43,944 nt of DNA, taken from NCBI GenBank assembly GCA_028875125.1, contig JAPPGC010000069.1, positions 1 to 43,944 of the forward strand. The letters are read 5' to 3'. Under the pieces are notes generated by a model, which worked only from the letters and a program-made list of their open reading frames with translations, made no database searches and was not told the origin of the DNA. Of the stretch, positions 1-20,370 are shown piece by piece (position 1 is the first letter of the stretch; each line of letters opens with the position of its first letter). The stretch comes from Bacteroidota bacterium. Lineage in GTDB: Bacteria; Bacteroidota; Rhodothermia; Rhodothermales; Bin80. Both the position numbers and the translations under genes were made by a program.

Positions 1-900
1 CCTGAAAACAGGGCCTTTTTGGCCTTCAGAGAGTTGCAAACTGTCGAAGTCAGGCTCCAACGAGTAAAGAAGGAAGACATGCGGATCTCCACGCCCACCG
101 TACGCCCTGCTCGAGCGATCAAGTTGCCGGTAGTATTCCGCACGGGTAAGGTTGTAGTGGTCGCTAAGAAGATGGGCGCAAGGAGATGGCACACCTTCTC
201 GAGCAAGAATCATGAATTCCGCCAATCGGGCAGTCCTCCCATTGCCATCGCCAAATGCGTGGATCCACGCGAGATATAAATGGACGAAGATAGCCCGAAG
301 AATCGCTGATGCGATGCGATCTTCGTCTCGGTCGGGGCGCATTATCCAGTCGTCACTCTCCAACCACTTGCAGAGTCTGTCTAGAAGGTAAGTACAATCC
401 TGTCTGGGTGCACCTCTATAGCGAAAGACACCAACAGGGTGTGTCGAAATCTGCCCTGGAACTACACCTTCCTCAAGATGCTCTTCGAGACCGGCAAGCA
501 GGATTCGATTCGCTCCAGCAATCCATTCAGCTGTCAGTGTCGGGGGTTGACCTCTCATGATGCTCTCAAAGATCTTATTGAAGGCACCGAGAACATTTGA
601 AACCTCCTGCTCCAGATATTTTTGAGATCTCGGTAGATCCAGTCGGTCTTCCAAAATGGCTTCAATTTGCTCTTCGCTAAGCGTATTTCCTTCAATAGCT
701 GTTGTAGCCCGAGCCCCCTTGACTAAGTAGATCTGATGCAGTTTTCGTGCTGTCGAGGGAGGCAGAACAGACTGAGCGACCTGATCACAGCGCGCAACCG
801 CCTCACCAAGCAACGACCAAAATAAAGGATCCATATGCTTCAAATTATGTCGAAAGCTGATCCAAGGGTGCGTACGGATGTATTCGCGATCATTCGGCAT
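1..900 (-). CDS. Fic family protein (C-terminus beyond window)
   Basis: This is a likely AMP transferase (AMPylator) or related Fic-fold enzyme that modifies a protein hydroxyl. I translated it from the minus strand: 300 codons stay open from an ATG at 898-900 to the window edge, so the C-terminus is missing. The core motif IHAFGDGNGRTAR is complete, with the catalytic histidine near residue 214 and the phosphate-binding GNGR after it. Near residues 66-72, TTAIEGN matches the (S/T)xxxE(G/N) inhibitory helix; its position before the Fic core makes this a class II protein, probably auto-inhibited. The first 100 residues resemble the N-terminal helical domain usual in stand-alone Fic proteins. 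No small antitoxin gene lies upstream, which fits internal inhibition. The target is unknown, and a DNA-binding domain could lie in the missing part. Confidence 0.9.
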   Translation of the reverse strand, partial: MPNDREYIRTHPWISFRHNLKHMDPLFWSLLGEAVARCDQVAQSVLPPSTARKLHQIYLVKGARATTAIEGNTLSEEQIEAILEDRLDLPRSQKYLEQEVSNVLGAFNKIFESIMRGQPPTLTAEWIAGANRILLAGLEEHLEEGVVPGQISTHPVGVFRYRGAPRQDCTYLLDRLCKWLESDDWIMRPDRDEDRIASAILRAIFVHLYLAWIHAFGDGNGRTARLAEFMILAREGVPSPCAHLLSDHYNLTRAEYYRQLDRSSRAYGGRGDPHVFLLYSLEPDFDSLQLSEGQKGPVFR

Positions 901-1539
901 GGACTATATCACTTGAGTGAATGAGTATGTTGTAATTCAAGTCCAATGGTGTATCCAACAATTGATTGGAAACTTGATGAAAAACAATACCATTGACGGT
1001 AGTATGGATCGAATTTAATTTAGTTTCAAAATATGACCAATAAAATGTCCATCAGAATGTCCAATTATCCGGCTGACATTTGTAGGTAGAATTCCCATGC
1101 TTTATACGAATGAATGGACTATAGCTGAGTCCCCAGAATAGTACACGCGGACTGGATTCACCATCCGAGCTGCCCTAATCAATCAACAATTCCCCGGGTG
1201 ATTCATTCTGGTTCTTGTCTGCCTCATTGTTCCTGATGAGTATCTATCCTGAATAACTATGACTTATCGGCATGTGAGTAATGTATCCATCGTCACATCA
1301 GCGATGGTTTAACCAATGTAGCTAAACTGAACAATGGCAAACGTTCCGTCAATCGGCAAAACAATTTACTTTTGAAGCCTTCAACCAGTACAGTGATCTT
1401 GTCAAGCTGCAAAACAGTCTCTGGATAGATCCAGAAGGGTCTCGTATTTTGGCCCCTTTCCCTGTAAGACGCAATCATGATCTCCCTACAATGCTGTCAA
1501 CCCCACTACAATGCATTTTCGGGGAGCGAGGCACTCCCT
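901..1539. other. Gene-poor, AT-richer stretch
   Basis: About 640 bases separate the Fic start from the end of the M20 gene. The first 200 bases are visibly AT-richer than the rest of the window. A short inverted repeat, CCATCG at 1287-1292 and CGATGG at 1302-1307, flanks a 9-base loop. A plus-strand frame stays open from 1326 to 1697 and its first 60 codons look protein-like, but it has no good start and runs antisense into the M20 gene. I support no gene here. Both neighbours are on the minus strand, so the stretch should hold the Fic promoter and the M20 terminator. Confidence 0.5.
1522..1538 (-). terminator. Stem-loop just after the M20 stop codon
   Basis: On the minus strand the M20 stop codon (1540-1542) is followed at once by GGGAG, a 7-base loop and CTCCC. 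The stem is only 5 base pairs and no T-run follows on the minus strand, so this is a weak terminator or a 3'-end-protecting hairpin at best. Confidence 0.3.
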
Positions 1540-2847
1540 TTATTCACTTTTTTGTTGGACCATATAGTCAACAGCCAGACTGGCGAGTGCACGTACTCCG
1601 GTCAGTAAAGCTGCCTCATCGGCAAAAAAGTAGGGCGAGTGGTTTCTCGGGACAGTTGCCAGATCAGCGTCCGGTGGCGCAACGCCGAGAAAAATGAATA
1701 ACCCCGGCACTTCGTTGGCAAAGTAGGAGAAATCCTCGGCGCCGGTTATTTTTGCAGTCTGCTTCACAGAATCAGACACGCGCTCCAGAGAAGGAAGCAT
1801 CTGCATGGTTAACTCTGGGTCATTCACGGTAACAGGGTATCCGTAGTCAATTTCGACTTCTGCAGTGGCACCGGCACTAGTTGCGATATGTTCAACCGTA
1901 TGTCGAATGCGGCGCTCTATATCTCGACGGACTTCGGGTAGGAACGTGCGTATTGTGCCGGATAATTCAACCTCGTCTGGAATGATGTTACTGCGTACAC
2001 CGCCATGGAAGGTGCCGATCGTGATGATAGAGGGTGTGGCAGTCACATCCAGTTGCCGGCTGGCGATTGTCTGCAATCCTAGGACAATTTGGCTGGCAAC
2101 AACAATCGGGTCTACGCCTCCCCAGGGAACTGCTCCGTGAGTCTGCCGACCTGTAACTTTGATACGCATTGCGTCTGAACTGGCCATGAATGGGCCGGGC
2201 AGGTAACTGATTTCGCCAACCCTGTTCGGCCAGACATGCAATCCGAAAATAACTTCCGGTCGGGGGTTCTCAAAGGCGCCCTCACGAAGCATGAGATCTG
2301 CACCACCTTCTTCACCGGCAGGTGCGCCTTCCTCTGCAGGTTGAAAGATGAATTTTACGGAGCCAGGCAAATCCTCTTTCATGGTCGTCAGGATACTTGC
2401 AACGCCCATCAGTATGGCCACATGGTTATCGTGTCCGCAGGCATGCATCACACCGACTTCCATTCCGTTGTATGTAGTGCGGACTTTGGAGGCGAAAGGT
2501 AGGTCAACCATTTCGGTGACTGGCAGTGCATCCATATCTGCGCGAAGTGCGACGATTGGGCCCGGCTTGCCGCCCTCCAGGAATCCGACGACTCCTGTGT
2601 GTGCAACTTCGGTTCGTACCTCCAAGCCAAGTGCGCGCAAGTGATCTGCGACAAGCGCAGCCGTCCGAAATTCACGATTACTCAACTCAGGATTCGCGTG
2701 AATATCCCGGCGCCATTCAATCACATCGGATTCAATCGCGGCGGCGTGCGCGTCCAGCGCTTTATGAAGCACACTAAGGTCCTGAGCCTGTACGGGCATG
2801 AGCCCGCCAGCCAGGATGGTCAGACAAAAGAATAATCGTAGCATCAT
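1540..2847 (-). CDS. Exported M20 family amidohydrolase
   Basis: This is a metal-dependent amidohydrolase of the M20D type (hippurate or N-acyl-amino-acid hydrolase group), predicted to cleave acyl-amino acids outside the cytoplasm. Residues 1-22 form a signal peptide ending VQAQ. Metal-site motifs are in order: RADMDALP (102-109), HACGHD with C137 and H139, QPAEEG with the catalytic glutamate near 172, H203, and a late NHSPYFF histidine near 403. GAEDFSYF is also typical. At 435 residues it is full length. The start overlaps the stop of the upstream DUF5916 gene by one base (TAATG), so the two are probably translationally coupled. The substrate cannot be read from sequence. Most M20D enzymes are cytoplasmic, so the signal peptide is the notable point. 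Confidence 0.93.
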   Translation of the reverse strand: MMLRLFFCLTILAGGLMPVQAQDLSVLHKALDAHAAAIESDVIEWRRDIHANPELSNREFRTAALVADHLRALGLEVRTEVAHTGVVGFLEGGKPGPIVALRADMDALPVTEMVDLPFASKVRTTYNGMEVGVMHACGHDNHVAILMGVASILTTMKEDLPGSVKFIFQPAEEGAPAGEEGGADLMLREGAFENPRPEVIFGLHVWPNRVGEISYLPGPFMASSDAMRIKVTGRQTHGAVPWGGVDPIVVASQIVLGLQTIASRQLDVTATPSIITIGTFHGGVRSNIIPDEVELSGTIRTFLPEVRRDIERRIRHTVEHIATSAGATAEVEIDYGYPVTVNDPELTMQMLPSLERVSDSVKQTAKITGAEDFSYFANEVPGLFIFLGVAPPDADLATVPRNHSPYFFADEAALLTGVRALASLAVDYMVQQKSE

Positions 2848-5090
2848 TAGCGAAGTACGTTGAGGAGTCGGCTATACTTAACGGTGATCGTGCGTCCTAG
2901 GCTGTTATGGAACGGTTGACTGGATTCACTCACATCATTCAACACGACGAACAGGCCCGTATTTGCAGTCTGAAGCCAGCCAAGCCTCAGGTTGGCTGAC
3001 CACAGGTCACCTATACTGTTGCTGTACTGAAACAGTCCCTGAACATATAGTCGGGGAGTAAACGAATATGAGATCCGTGTCTGAACTAGGTTGATCACAA
3101 AGTCTCCGCCGGGTAAGCGAACATCATTATGTGACCAGTCAAGTTCTGTGGTGAGTGCTTCATTGGCCCGAATGCGCAGCGTAGTTGACACATTCCGGCG
3201 TGTACCACCGAAGAAGCCACCCAGAACAGCACGTGAGCTGATACTTATCTTGCGCCCCTGGTTCGTAATGAGTACAAGTTGGGCTTCACGGTGATCATAG
3301 GTGCCAGCGGGTATACGTACCTTACCGGAGATCTCAAAGTCTTCCTGAACGCCCTCGCGTGTGAGATTGATACCGGTGTGGACCTCAAACCCGCTTTTCC
3401 ATTCCCAATGGTTGTCGATATGCCAGCGTCCTCCTTCCTGAAATCCTGCAAAATCCCAATAGCCCTGATAGCTCACATGAGGACGCAGTTCCAACAAGCC
3501 GAGCGAGTTTTCCGGCCGCCAGGCGTACAGTACGAGGCCGGTAATTTTCCTGTATTCGTTACTCCGTCGCAGGAAGCCGATTTCTGGATTGAAATCTTCG
3601 GCGACTTCAGTAAAGGTCCCGTTGATACGCCACACGTTCGAAACATAATCGGCATTGATATTATAGGCATGTTCGGCCCCTCCTAAGTGTGGCGAAAATG
3701 TTCGGGCGACAAAGCCGGAGATGGTTGCGAATTCCCCAATCCCCCATCGTCCGTCCACGGCTGCAGCCTGATTATCTTCTTCTAACGGTGTGGCATCTCC
3801 TGCATCCCTATGCAGGCGGCTTGTTGCCATGACGCCGACCGCGGAGCGATTCGCTAGGTCTTTACGGATGCGCGCAACGGAAAAATTTGTCCCGGCAGCA
3901 GCTCCCTGAACTTCACGGGTTTGCATGGTAAGGAGTCCTACATTTACACCGGCCATTTGACCTGAAAGCCGTGTACCTCCAAGGATCGGGATTACTTCTC
4001 CACTCGGTCCGATGCCTATTCGTCGACTGAAAAAGAGTTCAACTTCCTGTCCGCTGAATTCGGAAACGCCAATGGAAAAAAGCCCCGCATTTTCGAGGAA
4101 AAATGGACGTTTCTCCGGGAAGAAGAGATTGAATCGATCCAGGTTAACCTGTTGTTCATCCACTTCGACCTGTGCAAAGTCGGTATTGTAACTTGCATCC
4201 AGTGTGAGGCTTGGTGTAACACTATACTTGAGGTCCAGGCCAAGATCGCCGGAGGTTTCCACCTGGCGGTCTCCCGGCTCAAACGTACGTGTGACCTGTC
4301 CGAGTGTGTAGGGTACAACCTGGAGGTTGCGAGGTTGAGGTACGGTCAGTCCACTTACACGGCCCGCCTGTGATACTCTGCTAAGCTGATGCTGGCGCGG
4401 CATGCGCGTCCAGAAAGCACGTTCATTACGTCGGTGAATGTTTCGCTGGAAGTTTATGCCCCACGTCTGCTGTCGTGAAGCAGGAAAGCGAATCGTTCGA
4501 AAAGGGATCTCAAACTCAGCACTCCAGCCTTCGTCCGTGATGCTTGTCTGAACATCCCAAGATCCGTCCCAGTTGATATTGAAGCCGCCACCACTGCCGG
4601 CTTGTTGTCGTGCACCAAATCCGCCCTGACCCTCCTTGGTAACCTGAGCGTCGTACTCAATTCCTGCAGGATTTGTACCGAAGACGAAGCCATTCTGTCC
4701 GTCTAGGAATGTGTCAAGGATCATCTGAAAACTATCGGTCTCATCAAGAGGTGCATCGCGCCGGGTATCAGAAACAATGATCGCTTCTGGTTCGCGATCG
4801 TAGCATATGACACCGACATAGAGTGCACGATCAGTGTAAATCAGGTATACTTCGGTACGCTCGCTTGCCGGTTGCCCCTCCTGCGGTGTAGTTTGCCAGA
4901 ATTGACTAATGGGAAGGGTCTGTGAGTAAGCAGGATCACCGATGACGAGGCCATCCAGCACGGGAGCCACTTCTGTATGCACCGCAGCTGAAGTCGGTAC
5001 AGGCTCGTCTGGTGCACCGGGCATTGAGTATTGCGCGTTGGCGGTAACAGCCACTGGAAGAAATGCCAAAAGATAGACGAACAGACGCAT
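2847..5090 (-). CDS. CBM9-like / DUF5916 outer-membrane protein
   Basis: This is an exported protein with an N-terminal carbohydrate-binding family 9-like beta domain (roughly residues 35-220 of 747) followed by a DUF5916-type region expected to form a membrane beta-barrel. The frame is open further upstream to 5174, but the ATG at 5088-5090 directly precedes a clean signal peptide (MRLFVYLLAFLPVAVTANAQ), so I place the start there. The middle contains FFPEKRPFFLENAGLF, a hallmark of the DUF5916 family. Alternating aromatic and polar segments and a terminal hydrophobic strand fit a barrel. It is coupled to the M20 hydrolase downstream, suggesting binding or import of a substrate the hydrolase processes; that link is inference. 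The family is common in Bacteroidota and its function is unproven. Confidence 0.88.
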   Translation of the reverse strand: MRLFVYLLAFLPVAVTANAQYSMPGAPDEPVPTSAAVHTEVAPVLDGLVIGDPAYSQTLPISQFWQTTPQEGQPASERTEVYLIYTDRALYVGVICYDREPEAIIVSDTRRDAPLDETDSFQMILDTFLDGQNGFVFGTNPAGIEYDAQVTKEGQGGFGARQQAGSGGGFNINWDGSWDVQTSITDEGWSAEFEIPFRTIRFPASRQQTWGINFQRNIHRRNERAFWTRMPRQHQLSRVSQAGRVSGLTVPQPRNLQVVPYTLGQVTRTFEPGDRQVETSGDLGLDLKYSVTPSLTLDASYNTDFAQVEVDEQQVNLDRFNLFFPEKRPFFLENAGLFSIGVSEFSGQEVELFFSRRIGIGPSGEVIPILGGTRLSGQMAGVNVGLLTMQTREVQGAAAGTNFSVARIRKDLANRSAVGVMATSRLHRDAGDATPLEEDNQAAAVDGRWGIGEFATISGFVARTFSPHLGGAEHAYNINADYVSNVWRINGTFTEVAEDFNPEIGFLRRSNEYRKITGLVLYAWRPENSLGLLELRPHVSYQGYWDFAGFQEGGRWHIDNHWEWKSGFEVHTGINLTREGVQEDFEISGKVRIPAGTYDHREAQLVLITNQGRKISISSRAVLGGFFGGTRRNVSTTLRIRANEALTTELDWSHNDVRLPGGDFVINLVQTRISYSFTPRLYVQGLFQYSNSIGDLWSANLRLGWLQTANTGLFVVLNDVSESSQPFHNSLGRTITVKYSRLLNVLR

Positions 5091-15209: not shown

Positions 15210-16886
15210 TCAGTTCTCGGACGCCTTGCCGTCAAGTTCATCAAATGTAAAGCGGACGCTCATAATGTAAGGGGATTCCATTGGTGTCCAGTGACCATAG
15301 GTAGTGGTGACAACGGTTGCGTCGGGAAGTATCTCAACACCCGGATAGGACGTATCCGCCCCTTCTAGGTTGTCCATGAGTCGTACGCGATATTGTCCTT
15401 CTCGACCGTGTACGATATCCTCATAAGTGCCCACCCATCCGACCCAGTCGCCCCATGTGGGTGAAACATGTGTGCGGTCACGAAATGAAATAAATAGTCG
15501 ACCATCGGGACCGTAGACAGCCTGATGTCGGTCACCGGTGAGGGCACCCGTGACTTCTATTGGTGTGCTCCATGTTGCCCCTTCATCATCCGAAAACGTT
15601 ACGAAGCTATTGAACTGCCGGCTGTTCTCTCTCAACAACATGGCGAGTTGCTGGCCGTCAGGAGACCGAATAACACCCGGCTCGCACAGGTGGGCCACGG
15701 GATGGGTTACGACGACTTCCGGCCTGCTCCAGGTTAGTCCGCCGTCAGACGACACGGTTTTGTACACGTAAAATTGTCCACGCTCTTCCTCGCGCCCATT
15801 AATGAACCTGCCGTCGTCGTGAAAGAATGCCATGTGGCGGCCATCACGCAATCGGATCAGATCCCCCATTACCACGATTCCACCAAAATCCCCAATAGAT
15901 TCCAGCGGGCTCCAGGTATTTCCTTCGTCTTCAGAAACAGCCATGCGGATGGGATACAGCCCGGAAAACATGATCAGACGCTTCGTACCATCTCGATCAA
16001 TGACCGGATAAAGGGTTGGGACCTCCTGCGAAGTTGACCAGTTATCCGGCACCGGGAGGCGATCGCTCCAAGTAAGTCCGCCGTCATGGCTTTTCTTCAT
16101 CACAATCGCACCGCGCCCGTGTCCCTTTGGATAGACGGTTATGATTGTGCGCTGGTCATCCAGCAGTACGGTGGTTGGATGACCAAGGTACTGGTTGGGC
16201 TCACGGTCCACCAACACTTGCCGGTGGGTTTCTTCAGCAAGGTCAACCAGCGGGATACTGAATCCGCCGGGGTCGGTCATGCCACTGGGGGTGAAGGTGC
16301 CTGTGCTGACAAATTCTTGGACGCGGAGTATGCTCTTGGTCACAGGTTCTACGCGGCCAAGGGGGGAGAACGTGAAGCCAAATTGGCCGATGCCTGCAAA
16401 ACTTCCCACCGAATGGACCAACTGGTCATTAATCAGAAACCGGATGGTACCTTCTTTTCGCGTAGCTTCAAATTTAAACCATTCTTCAGGTTCAAAGTGA
16501 TCCCGGGTGGCACCGAGGACTATATGATGCCGGCCTGCCAAGGCGCCAGAGAGGTATAGCTGTTGATTTGGTCCATCGAAACCGAGATAGCTGCTGCCCA
16601 ATTGGAATGCGGCCCCCGACGCATTTAGTTCAGCAATACTGAGCTGCGCTGTGATCTGAAAATCCCCCGTTCCAAGGTCACGGGTAGCGAACAGCCCTGT
16701 CTCACCAGAAGCGTCTGACTGGATCTCAATATATCCATTCCGTTCTGCCCACGTACCCGAGCTGCCCATTTCCACGACACCGTTCTGTGCGATAGTGATG
16801 GTTTCCTGCGCCAGAACTGTCGTTGCCAGTAGCGTTATGCCTGCGAATAGACATGCCAGTTGGCTGATGTAGATGAAGCGTAGCAT
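15210..16886 (-). CDS. Exported Asp-box hydrolase, sialidase-like
   Basis: This protein of about 558 residues is expected to act in the periplasm or on the surface on glycans. The frame extends to a TTG at 16925, but the ATG at 16886 directly begins the signal peptide (to about residue 27, VLAQ), so I place the start there. Residues 30-200 look like a lectin or LamG-type beta-sandwich. A six-bladed propeller follows with four Asp boxes: SHDGGLTW (266-273), SEDEGNTW (318-325), SSDGGLTW (379-386) and SDDEGATW (432-439). Sialidases normally open this fold with an arginine in RIP; here YLGHP occupies that place (233-237), so the substrate is uncertain. The gene follows a sialic acid lyase and a mutarotase-symporter, which favours sialic acid or a similar sugar. 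Confidence 0.8.
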   Translation of the reverse strand: MLRFIYISQLACLFAGITLLATTVLAQETITIAQNGVVEMGSSGTWAERNGYIEIQSDASGETGLFATRDLGTGDFQITAQLSIAELNASGAAFQLGSSYLGFDGPNQQLYLSGALAGRHHIVLGATRDHFEPEEWFKFEATRKEGTIRFLINDQLVHSVGSFAGIGQFGFTFSPLGRVEPVTKSILRVQEFVSTGTFTPSGMTDPGGFSIPLVDLAEETHRQVLVDREPNQYLGHPTTVLLDDQRTIITVYPKGHGRGAIVMKKSHDGGLTWSDRLPVPDNWSTSQEVPTLYPVIDRDGTKRLIMFSGLYPIRMAVSEDEGNTWSPLESIGDFGGIVVMGDLIRLRDGRHMAFFHDDGRFINGREEERGQFYVYKTVSSDGGLTWSRPEVVVTHPVAHLCEPGVIRSPDGQQLAMLLRENSRQFNSFVTFSDDEGATWSTPIEVTGALTGDRHQAVYGPDGRLFISFRDRTHVSPTWGDWVGWVGTYEDIVHGREGQYRVRLMDNLEGADTSYPGVEILPDATVVTTTYGHWTPMESPYIMSVRFTFDELDGKASEN

Positions 16887-16931
16887 AAGTACTAAGAGGT
16901 TTGTTACAGCGTGTGTATAGTTCAAGGATGT

Positions 16932-17858
16932 TCAATTGGAATGTTTTCGGCCCCACTCAAAAAATCCGATCGCTTCCAGCGCCTGGTGCATTTCTGTGAT
17001 TTGTGCGGGCGTAGCGGTGGAGTGGGGCAATCTGTGCGGTCCACAATCCTGACCAATCAATCCCATAACGGCTTTGAAACCGGGGCGTCCGCAGGTTTTC
17101 AGAATGACGTTTATCATCGTAGAGGCGCGCTCCTGATTGAGCCGGGCCTCTTCTATCTGTCCCTGTTCGCAGCAGGCGATAAGACGGTTGTAGAGTGGTG
17201 CAGCAAAATTGTAGGTCGTTCCCACTGCCCCACGCATACCTGTCATCCATGCGCTGAGGAGCATTTCATCAACGCCGCATAAAAAGTCGTACTTCTCGGT
17301 GTAAGCGCACGCCGAGACCGCATGCTGGCGCGTATCAGAAAACTTGACTCCAACAAGCGAGGGCAGTTGGCGGCTTGCCAAACGCAGGAAATCGTTCAGA
17401 TCCAACTCTACCCCGGTCTTTGCCGGGATATGATAGTAATAGAAGGGGAGGTCAGGTGCGCCCGCGGTAATTGTCGCCAGACAGTCTACCAGCGATCTTG
17501 TGGTGTCGGGCCCGAAATAGCTGGGAGGAACAGCCGAAATAGCACTGGCTCCGATCTGCTGTGCGTGCATGGCGAGGGTTTGAGCTTCCTGGAGACAGTT
17601 GTGCCCGACATGAACTACGACAGGCACACGGCTGGCGGCGGCCTTTACAAAAGCTGTAGCAGTCTGTTGCCGCTCGTGGATTGTCAGTGAGATCCCTTCA
17701 CCCGTGCTGCCCAGTACGTACAATGCAGAGACACCGTCTCTCAACAAGTGTTCAACCAGGCCTGGGATGCGGTCAATATCCAGTGTTGCGTCGTTGTTCA
17801 ATGGTGTGAACGCTGCTGCGGTAAGGCCCGTGAGCTGCATTGATTTAACCTGCGTCAT
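16932..17858 (-). CDS. nanA: N-acetylneuraminate lyase (NPL type, DapA superfamily)
   Basis: This is a class I aldolase that would split N-acetylneuraminate into N-acetylmannosamine and pyruvate in the cytoplasm. GSTGE (50-54) binds the pyruvate carboxylate, the tyrosine before HIP at 142 is catalytic, and GVKFSDT carries the Schiff-base lysine K172. The runs FYYYHIPAKTG, VGVKFSDT and GPHRLP are closer to the animal NPL form than to E. coli NanA or DapA, from recollection of those sequences. At 308 residues it is full length. The start overlaps the end of the upstream transporter gene by 14 bases; an ATG at 17840, just past that stop, is an alternative. Related aldolases for other keto acids cannot be excluded. 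Confidence 0.85.
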   Translation of the reverse strand: MTQVKSMQLTGLTAAAFTPLNNDATLDIDRIPGLVEHLLRDGVSALYVLGSTGEGISLTIHERQQTATAFVKAAASRVPVVVHVGHNCLQEAQTLAMHAQQIGASAISAVPPSYFGPDTTRSLVDCLATITAGAPDLPFYYYHIPAKTGVELDLNDFLRLASRQLPSLVGVKFSDTRQHAVSACAYTEKYDFLCGVDEMLLSAWMTGMRGAVGTTYNFAAPLYNRLIACCEQGQIEEARLNQERASTMINVILKTCGRPGFKAVMGLIGQDCGPHRLPHSTATPAQITEMHQALEAIGFFEWGRKHSN

Positions 17859-20370
17859 TCTCGTCTTTGTTCGGCAGTCTGTCTCCCAAGGTATAAATCG
17901 TTAGTCCATTAAGTTGTGCACGCTGGTTTGGGAGGAGGTGACTCATGAAATACCCTACAACAAAGCAGGTAAGGATTCCAATGCTTGCGTACAGGAAGAA
18001 GTGGATTGCAGTAAAAGCACTAACCAAGTAGAGTACGATCGCGCTGGTACAGGCACCAATCAATGCCCCGGTGCTGTTTGCACTGCGTGTGAAGATGCCC
18101 AGAGCAAAGAGACCTGCCAGGCTGCTTCCCAATAAACCCAGCAGTTCAAGGAAAAAGTCGAAGAGTGAAGCAATCTCAATGGTAGCCGTCAATAATCCAA
18201 TGGCTGTGGCCAGGAAACCCAGTCCAACTGTCAACCACTTGGCCAGTCGCAGACGGATTGACGCAGTGGAGTGTGGCCTGAATCTTTTGTAGAAATCACA
18301 TACCAGTGCGGCAACGGCACTGTTGAGGCTACTGTCAAGACTGGACATCGCTGCGGCGAAGATTCCAGCAATCAGGAGTCCTGAAATCCCCTGCGGTAGC
18401 TGTTGTACAATAAACAGTGGAAAGATTGCGTCGGTAGACAATGAAGGCTCCAGCGCGCCTGCATGCTGTTGATAGAATACAAACAGGGCCGTACCCAGAG
18501 AGAAGAAAAGTAGACCGCCCGGGATAGTGAGTGCTGCATTGGTCCAGACAGATCGCGCAGCAAGTTTTTCGGTTTTCGTGGTCAGATATCGTTGTACCAC
18601 AGTCTGGTCCGCCGTGTAGGGGATCAGGTTGCTGAAAATTGAGCCCCCCAGCACCACCCAGACTGCTGTCGTCGTAGCATCCCACGACCAAGTCAGCATA
18701 TGAAATTTGTTCTCAGAGGTCGCAATTTCGATCAAGCCGGAGGCGCCGCCCTCAATGTTCAAAACCATGATAATCAGACTTAATAACGCCCCTCCCAAGA
18801 GCACAATTACTTGCATCACATCAGACCAGATCACAGCTTCCATGCCTCCCAGTGCTGTATAGAAGGTGCTCAGTAAGCCCATCAGCAGGATGGCCAGGTA
18901 AAGGTTGAAGCCTGTGACTGCGGACAAGGCAAGTGCAGGCAGAAAGATCACCACACCCATGCGTCCGAGTTGGAGGAGCACGAATGAGAGGCTGCCGAAA
19001 AGTCGCACGGCTACACTGAAACGCTGCTCCAAATACTCGTAGGCTGTCGTTATCTGGAGTCGACGAAAGAAGGGCAGATAGAGGAAGACGACTATTGGCG
19101 CAACCAGCAGGATGGCAATCTGCCCTAGAAAGTAAACCCAATCCGTAGCGTAGGCCTTGGCGGGTATGGCCATGAAGGTGATTGCGCTTAGCTGTGTTCC
19201 AAAGATGCTGATTCCCGCTGCCCACCAGGGGATGCGTCGGCGGGCTAGGAAGTAGACCGCCACGACCACATAGTTGATGGTGCCGAAAGGAGGAACGGCG
19301 TTGCTCGGTGTGGCCTGCCAGATAGCAGCGGTCCGTACTCCCGGGCGTATTTCACCACTCGGGATAAGAAAATGATCGCCCTGTCGAACTGTTGGAACGG
19401 TAACCTGCCCCATGGGCAAAGTGCCCAGATGTGCCCAGGTGTCCGTAATAACGTGATAGGCCAGCACATTGCGGCTGAATCCCGGATGTAGGTCGCCGAG
19501 TTCCTGAACGCGATCTACATCCGCTCCAGTATTGCCTCCCAACACCAGGAGATGTGAGGGCCCCACGGCGATTGCGGGAGAGGGAGCAGCGGCTGCAGGA
19601 TACGGTAGATCACGAAGTCGCTCCCATCCGTGTGAGGGGTGATATCGATAGGCATCGGTGAGAAACTCGTAAGCTGTTTTACCGGCTGTGTCCGGCTCCA
19701 GCGCGGTGCCGCTAAAGAGGTAGAATGCCCCATCTGATGCGCCCGTTACGGCGCTGTGGCGGGGAGCACCGGGCACAGGTTCAAGTGTTTGCCATTGCGC
19801 GTCTGGACCAGCCAGGTTAAGCGCCCATAAATTGCTGCTTGCGACGGTATCATCGGGGGTTTCCAGGCCTCCGGTGATATAAAGGGTGGTTTCAACTATC
19901 GCTCCGCTGGCAAAGGCGCGGGGTTGTGGGAGAGCTGGTAATGACCGCTGTGAGATGCTCTCGCCATCCCAACGGAATGCAATCACCTCCTCAAAGTGTT
20001 TTTGGGCATCTCCACCACCTGCACAGATCACTTCATCCTCCCATTGGGCAGCTACGGTATATCCCGTTGGGCGGTTGAGTGTAAATCCGCTTTTCCACTC
20101 GCTGAATGAAGAAGTCAAAACGTAGATACTGTCGGTCCACACTTTCTCCCCACCCTGCAAGAACGGATCACGAAAATGTGCACCTCCGGCCACGATCAGT
20201 GCACTGTTTGAGATTCCGGCGCATGGACCGCCTACTCCGATTGAGTCTGGAAGATCGGGCAACCGATGCCAGTCAAGCAACTCTTTGATTGGCGCATCCT
20301 GACCTTGCAACGCAGCGACCGGGAAGAGTAGGGTGCATAATAGAATGACCTTTTTGGCCGCCCCTACCAT
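17845..20370 (-). CDS. Kelch mutarotase fused to sodium:solute symporter
   Basis: This 841-residue fusion joins a periplasmic sugar mutarotase domain to a sodium-coupled transporter. The frame is open to 20403, but the ATG at 20368-20370 starts a signal peptide (VAALQGQ near residue 24), so I use it. Residues 35-355 are a kelch beta-propeller of the NanM/YjhT type, with repeats such as LYITGGLE, FYLFSGTA and LLVLGGN. From about residue 362, roughly thirteen membrane helices follow with SSS-family signatures, including GMEAVIWSDVMQ and SSLDSSLNSAVAAL. An SSS transporter with its N-terminus outside fits a periplasmic mutarotase in front. The lyase gene follows directly, so the cargo is most likely sialic acid: anomer conversion coupled to uptake. 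No separate TRAP or NanT transporter is present in the window. Confidence 0.87.
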   Translation of the reverse strand: MVGAAKKVILLCTLLFPVAALQGQDAPIKELLDWHRLPDLPDSIGVGGPCAGISNSALIVAGGAHFRDPFLQGGEKVWTDSIYVLTSSFSEWKSGFTLNRPTGYTVAAQWEDEVICAGGGDAQKHFEEVIAFRWDGESISQRSLPALPQPRAFASGAIVETTLYITGGLETPDDTVASSNLWALNLAGPDAQWQTLEPVPGAPRHSAVTGASDGAFYLFSGTALEPDTAGKTAYEFLTDAYRYHPSHGWERLRDLPYPAAAAPSPAIAVGPSHLLVLGGNTGADVDRVQELGDLHPGFSRNVLAYHVITDTWAHLGTLPMGQVTVPTVRQGDHFLIPSGEIRPGVRTAAIWQATPSNAVPPFGTINYVVVAVYFLARRRIPWWAAGISIFGTQLSAITFMAIPAKAYATDWVYFLGQIAILLVAPIVVFLYLPFFRRLQITTAYEYLEQRFSVAVRLFGSLSFVLLQLGRMGVVIFLPALALSAVTGFNLYLAILLMGLLSTFYTALGGMEAVIWSDVMQVIVLLGGALLSLIIMVLNIEGGASGLIEIATSENKFHMLTWSWDATTTAVWVVLGGSIFSNLIPYTADQTVVQRYLTTKTEKLAARSVWTNAALTIPGGLLFFSLGTALFVFYQQHAGALEPSLSTDAIFPLFIVQQLPQGISGLLIAGIFAAAMSSLDSSLNSAVAALVCDFYKRFRPHSTASIRLRLAKWLTVGLGFLATAIGLLTATIEIASLFDFFLELLGLLGSSLAGLFALGIFTRSANSTGALIGACTSAIVLYLVSAFTAIHFFLYASIGILTCFVVGYFMSHLLPNQRAQLNGLTIYTLGDRLPNKDENDAG

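Follow-up and report, generated by a model that had tools for sequence, protein, structure and literature searches.

Sialic acid transport has mainly been studied in vertebrate commensals and pathogens, in which the mutarotase and the transporter are separate. The locus described here raises the question of whether the two activities can reside in one polypeptide, and whether the copy at hand is still whole. It lies in a 43,944-nucleotide stretch of DNA from a Rhodothermaceae-type bacterium (hereafter the window), contig C26 of a 3.3-Mb, 129-contig assembly. A preliminary description had proposed that one frame encodes a signal peptide, a kelch propeller of the NanM/YjhT type, and a complete SSS transporter, and that this frame overlaps an NPL-type lyase gene by 14 bases.

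A single frame joins a propeller to a transporter

The fusion gene is a single open frame on the minus strand (Table 1), with its start placed at an ATG (position 20370) and a TTG lying 11 codons upstream. Pfam domains were found in the order expected from the proposal: a signal-like N-terminal helix is followed by NANM (PF24996) and then by SSF (PF00474; 155 bits, residues 373-773). The signal-like helix and propeller in one frame of 841 codons were confirmed, as was the 14-base overlap with the lyase gene. Because 88 further proteins in the alignment share this architecture, a chance origin of the fusion is excluded, and a merger of two ordinary genes by a frame error was likewise ruled out. 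No paper describing a mutarotase-transporter fusion was found in the literature searched; Severi et al. 2008 may reportedly mention NanM-transporter fusions.

Table 1. Features of the fusion locus and its neighbors, with positions counted from the first nucleotide of the window
Feature	Position	Strand	Evidence
BNR (four Asp-box) sialidase-like protein, no FRIP motif	15210..16925	-	PF13088; weak PDB sialidase matches; motif scan
NPL/NanA-type N-acetylneuraminate lyase, 308 aa, 14-bp overlap with fusion gene	16932..17858	-	PF00701; PRK04147 154.9 bits vs dapA 138.1; best PDB matches 6arh, 5afd
Fusion gene, 841 aa: signal peptide, NanM-type kelch propeller, and SSS transporter lacking half of Tm0	17845..20370	-	PF24996, PF00474, TIGR00813, TIGR03548; AlphaFold2 pLDDT 86.5
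SSS (SiaT-type) transporter core, residues 373-816	17923..19254	-	for intact congener proteins, SiaT 5nv9 best PDB match and Foldseek TMt 0.96 to 5nva
Deletion scar: single TACTTCCT, two copies 63 bp apart in congeners; 21 residues of Tm0 and Tm0-Tm1 loop missing	19247..19254	-	window aligned to DNA of four congeners; 89 aligned fusion proteins
Kelch propeller, NanM-type, blades in cyclically permuted order	19291..20283	-	three YjhT (2uvk) segments in permuted order; PF24996
NanM motif GEIRPGVRT, residues 339-347	19330..19356	-	aligns with GEAKPGLRT, E209/R215 of 2uvk chain
Signal-peptide-like hydrophobic N-terminus MVGAAKKVILLCTLLFPVAALQGQ	20299..20370	-	sequence; helix in AlphaFold2 models

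The propeller is of the NanM type with permuted blades

The propeller matched the NANM profile with 117 bits, passing the curated gathering cutoff of 45. It aligned with YjhT/NanM (2uvk) in three pieces, in the order YjhT 229-327, 3-103, and 166-221. The third piece contains GEIRPGVRT aligned to GEAKPGLRT, so the window retains the equivalents of E209 and R215 in the YjhT chain. Severi 2008 reportedly identified these two as the catalytic residues. The GE-x-(K/R)-PG-x-R-T motif is kept, and the NanM-type families of NCBIfam were matched with scores below both cutoffs (102 of 256 bits for TIGR03547 and 118.8 of 243.2 bits for TIGR03548). Entry 2uvk was not listed among the top 50 Foldseek matches, probably because of the blade permutation.

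Across the 89 aligned fusions, the Glu of the NanM motif is kept in 75 and the Arg in 74; both are present in 73, including the window copy, and one or both are lost in 16. Since those 16 still have the propeller, its role might be non-enzymatic: as a binding or docking domain in the periplasm, it could deliver substrate or hold partners. We consider this very unlikely for the family, given that the 73 fusions with both residues are mostly those beside lyase genes. A propeller without the Glu/Arg motif was seen in the fusions at L045, L047, L048, L050-L052, L106, L125, L138, L140, and L154, which mostly have no lyase gene nearby and possibly have another substrate or a non-enzymatic propeller.

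The transporter half is closest to SiaT

With the intact protein of a congener as query, the best match in the PDB was SiaT (5nv9; 374 bits, with the next at 201), and the model of an intact congener protein aligned to 5nva with a Foldseek TMt of 0.96. Ser60, Thr63, Gln82, and Arg135, a change in any of which abolishes SiaT transport, are all kept in the window sequence, and Asn247 is retained together with Gln82. In SiaT numbering, S60, R135, and D182 are invariant in 89 of 89 fusions, and the position of Thr63 holds Thr or Ser in 88. Thr58, Phe78, Phe243, and Gln250 of SiaT are changed in the window.

A deletion removes half of Tm0 in the window copy

SiaT has a periplasmic N-terminus and 13 helices (Tm0 to Tm12), of which Tm1-Tm10 make up the LeuT-fold core and Tm0 lies outside it (PMC5931594). 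Contrary to the proposal, the transporter of the window copy is not complete: 21 residues (63 bp) are missing from it at residues 372/373. With half of Tm0 gone, it does not have the 13 helices including Tm0 that are typical of SiaT; its congeners do have Tm0.

Alignments of the window protein with its relatives fell into two pieces, with the break at residues 373-384. At this place, the congener G004 (L041) has 21 extra residues, YFLILAGMGLYFWNRGKSDTD, between two YFL copies, and in the DNA the 63 bp were lost in frame between two TACTTCCT repeats of about 8-9 bp. The flanks of the deletion are 96-97% identical to a congener, and on one side the alignment runs without a gap for 10,460 bp at 96% identity. 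The window holds the sole copy without the 21-residue stretch among the 89 aligned fusions, which come from several phyla. By alignment, the missing residues are equivalent to SiaT 17-37, that is, to the latter half of Tm0 and the first part of the intracellular Tm0-Tm1 loop, and they include the inner-gate residue Arg31. In SiaT, Arg31 and Arg44, in the loop behind Tm0, contact Glu176 and stabilize the closed inner gate (PMC5931594).

AlphaFold2 predicted a 22-residue Tm0 (364-385) and a loop helix for the intact congener (mean pLDDT, 91.2). For the window protein, it predicted a 9-residue helix at the site of Tm0, followed by a block with a pLDDT of 46 (mean, 86.5). The apparent insertion energy of the 19-residue span of the first helix rose from about -0.9 (intact) to +3.9 (window) in a simplified calculation, which is an approximation by hydropathy sum and not the output of a validated predictor. 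Because a path from a periplasmic propeller to a cytoplasmic C-terminus needs an odd number of helices, loss of Tm0 would also upset the topology.

Judged by these alignments, the window carries an allele of the fusion that was recently shortened by in-frame loss between two 8-bp repeats, a call that rests on one draft assembly. An error of sequencing or assembly, with an intact fusion in the organism, seems distinctly unlikely. The 129 contigs look like a metagenome bin and the remaining frame is intact and constrained, as such an error would allow; however, a breakpoint repeat of 8-9 bp is too short for the usual short-read assembler to jump, and the loss is clean and in frame, with one flank gapless over 10 kb. 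No second intact fusion copy was found in the genome of the window, so that explanation for a harmless deletion was ruled out.

The window branch carries six non-synonymous and 19 synonymous changes, compared with eight and 21 for G004. Relaxed selection, the sign of an old pseudogene, was thus not seen on the window branch, suggesting that the damage is recent, or tolerated, or limited to part of the population. The shortened protein might even function, if the remaining TINYVVVAVYFLA and the RRR after it span or dip into the membrane or if Tm0 is dispensable. Such a reading fits the preserved frame under unrelaxed selection and the position of Tm0 outside the SiaT core Tm1-Tm10 (PMC5931594). 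It is nevertheless unlikely, as the full helix is kept in 88 of 89 fusions, only about 13 hydrophobic residues are left with low AlphaFold2 confidence there, and the deletion takes the equivalent of Arg31, removing one partner of the Arg31/Arg44-Glu176 inner-gate contacts of SiaT (PMC5931594). With half of Tm0 missing, the fusion protein of the window is probably impaired.

The fusion is widespread and linked to lyase and epimerase genes

A scan of GTDB species genomes returned at least 80 loci, nearly all of them full fusions. The matches listed include Planctomycetota, Verrucomicrobiota, Acidobacteriota, Bacteroidota, Balneolota, Calditrichota, KSB1, Hydrogenedentota, and other phyla. A quick tree placed SiaT, on a long branch, and three unfused relatives among the fusions; no separate propeller gene was found beside the unfused relatives G039, G044, and G054. 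Two fusion genes lie close together at L152 (5152-7734 and 7980-10562) and at L112 (3-2168 and 2658-5426).

Linkage was counted for the 56 fusion loci among the matches listed with flanks of 2.5 kb or more on each side. Of these, 29 have a lyase gene within 4 kb and 13 an AGE epimerase gene, usually within 60 bp of the fusion or overlapping it. Neither gene was found near other SSS genes (0 of 25 loci examined, many with short flanks). Lyase genes are nearby in 40 of the 73 fusions with the Glu/Arg pair versus two of the 16 without it (Fisher p 0.002, uncorrected for relatedness).

Neighboring genes

The lyase gene was assigned to the NPL type. Two outcomes that the preliminary description had named as refuting it, a propeller unlike any NanM-type profile and a lyase grouping with DapA, did not arise. 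The NanA/NPL profiles scored higher than those of DapA (154.9 vs 138.1 bits) and the best solved relatives are the N-acetylneuraminate lyases 6arh and 5afd, so DapA or another keto-acid aldolase was ruled out. The score is below the NCBIfam equivalog cutoffs (281 bits for PRK04147 and 382 for nanA).

Six bases after the lyase gene begins a BNR gene that the preliminary description did not mention. A motif scan of its product for GH33 features found four Asp boxes and no FRIP, and matches to sialidases in the PDB were weak; the protein may or may not be an active sialidase. A QYLGHP motif stands where FRIP might be expected, and homologs are found beside or near other fusion genes (L047, L048, and L116). 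The BNR protein possibly represents a divergent sialidase class.

These neighbors bear on the substrate. Instead of Neu5Ac, it could be another nonulosonic or keto sugar acid, such as KDN, legionaminic acid, pseudaminic acid, or an acid from plants or algae. Many fusion carriers come from environmental, non-vertebrate samples, the pocket residues Phe78, Phe243, and Gln250 of SiaT differ, the adjoining BNR protein has no FRIP motif, and NanM also accelerates the use of KDN (PMC8141875). However, the carboxylate-binding Arg135 and Ser60 are invariant and the lyase is closest to NPL/NAL. AGE, which acts on ManNAc/GlcNAc, recurs as a neighbor, and an N-acetylmannosamine product is thereby implied. 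A substrate other than Neu5Ac is therefore improbable.

The rest of the pathway in the host genome

The fusion is present in five of 10 genomes of the window's genus and absent from the other five. One congener, G009 (L082, intact fusion at 520-3117), is Rhodothermaceae bacterium bin80, which we take to be a sponge metagenome bin and which is likely a sponge symbiont. Sponge symbionts are enriched in sialidase genes, and sialic-acid-linked residues occur in the sponge mesohyl (PMC8163846).

Other sialate genes, expected elsewhere in the genome under the first proposal, were found in part: an interrupted AGE gene, ROK kinases, and NagB are encoded, but NanE is absent and no NagA scored above its cutoff. 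At L075:14278-16272 (C119 of G000, the genome of the window), NagB is fused to a PIG-L-type deacetylase domain that might substitute for the missing NagA.

The gene for AGE-type N-acylglucosamine 2-epimerase occurs in all 10 genomes of the genus and is intact in the nine congeners. In G000 the gene lies in two parts, one at the start of contig C64 (L072:1-982) and one at the start of C65 (L073:1-215). Both contig ends bear similar terminal repeats, and on the intact G004 gene the parts share 5 bp (CAGGT / ACCTG). Evidently, an insertion element interrupted the gene and duplicated its 5-bp target (CAGGT). The terminal repeat occurs 43 times in G000, nearly always at contig ends, and in none of the nine congeners (G001-G009). 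An apparent recent burst of the insertion element, with AATTTTAAYTGTCGTCA end repeats, has fragmented the G000 assembly.

Proposed function of intact and damaged fusions

Taken together, the most probable reading, to which we assign a probability of roughly 0.7, is a conserved family of sialate mutarotase-symporters with a recently damaged allele in the window. The preliminary observation largely holds, apart from the completeness of the transporter, and its functional interpretation has good support at the level of the protein family. The propeller of intact members would be exported to the periplasm and, through its Glu/Arg site, would equilibrate the alpha and beta forms of sialic acid. Tm0 would tether it to a SiaT-like Na+ symporter that presumably imports the sugar. 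An NPL-type lyase of the same gene cluster would then cleave sialic acid to pyruvate and ManNAc in the cytoplasm, with the AGE epimerase as the likely next step. Sialidases set sialic acid free as the alpha anomer, whereas SiaT binds the beta form, and interconversion is accelerated by NanM (PMC5931594, PMC10017367, PMC8141875); a mutarotase tethered before the transporter therefore makes sense. The direct hand-over of the anomer from propeller to transporter that the preliminary description proposed is plausible.

In the window, the loss between the two 8-bp repeats would have cut half of Tm0, the segment that leads the chain out of the periplasmic propeller and into the core of the transporter. 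Since Tm0 of the fusion is damaged and AGE is broken by an insertion element, sialic acid use is probably impaired in this organism. A bolder proposal is that intact fusions are single-polypeptide channeling devices, in which the propeller passes the transported anomer straight to the symporter mouth, used by many environmental phyla for feeding on sialic acids outside vertebrate hosts, with the window allele as a natural Tm0 knockout. We advance this tentatively, as possible but short of even odds.

As a fusion common across environmental phyla, with lyase and epimerase genes linked to it, the protein allows the coupling of anomer conversion and uptake to be tested directly. The window allele provides a natural test of the role of Tm0, and it may show how a sialate route begins to decay in a probable symbiont.

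Comparison with known systems

NanA/NPL gave the best profile and the best structural relatives for the overlapping lyase gene, although its product does not reach the equivalog cutoffs. The transporter half is like SiaT of Proteus mirabilis (SSS, sialic acid transporter family ST5; 5nv9/5nva) in both sequence and fold, and the two have Ser60, Thr63, Gln82, Arg135, Asn247, Asp182, and Ser342 in common. SiaT differs in having no extra domain and in Thr58, Phe78, Phe243, and Gln250, which the window fusion does not match, and its residues 17-37 (half of Tm0 and the loop) have no equivalent in the window copy. For the propeller, the cyclically permuted mutarotase family TIGR03548 has the same blade order and is the best NCBIfam match by E-value, but the score is below the family cutoff and the best stretch covers model positions 1-231 of 323. 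With NanM/YjhT of E. coli (2uvk), the fusion shares the kelch propeller, the GE-x-(K/R)-PG-x-R-T motif, and secretion. Whereas NanM/YjhT is a free periplasmic homodimer, the propeller described here has cyclically permuted blades and is fused to a transporter.
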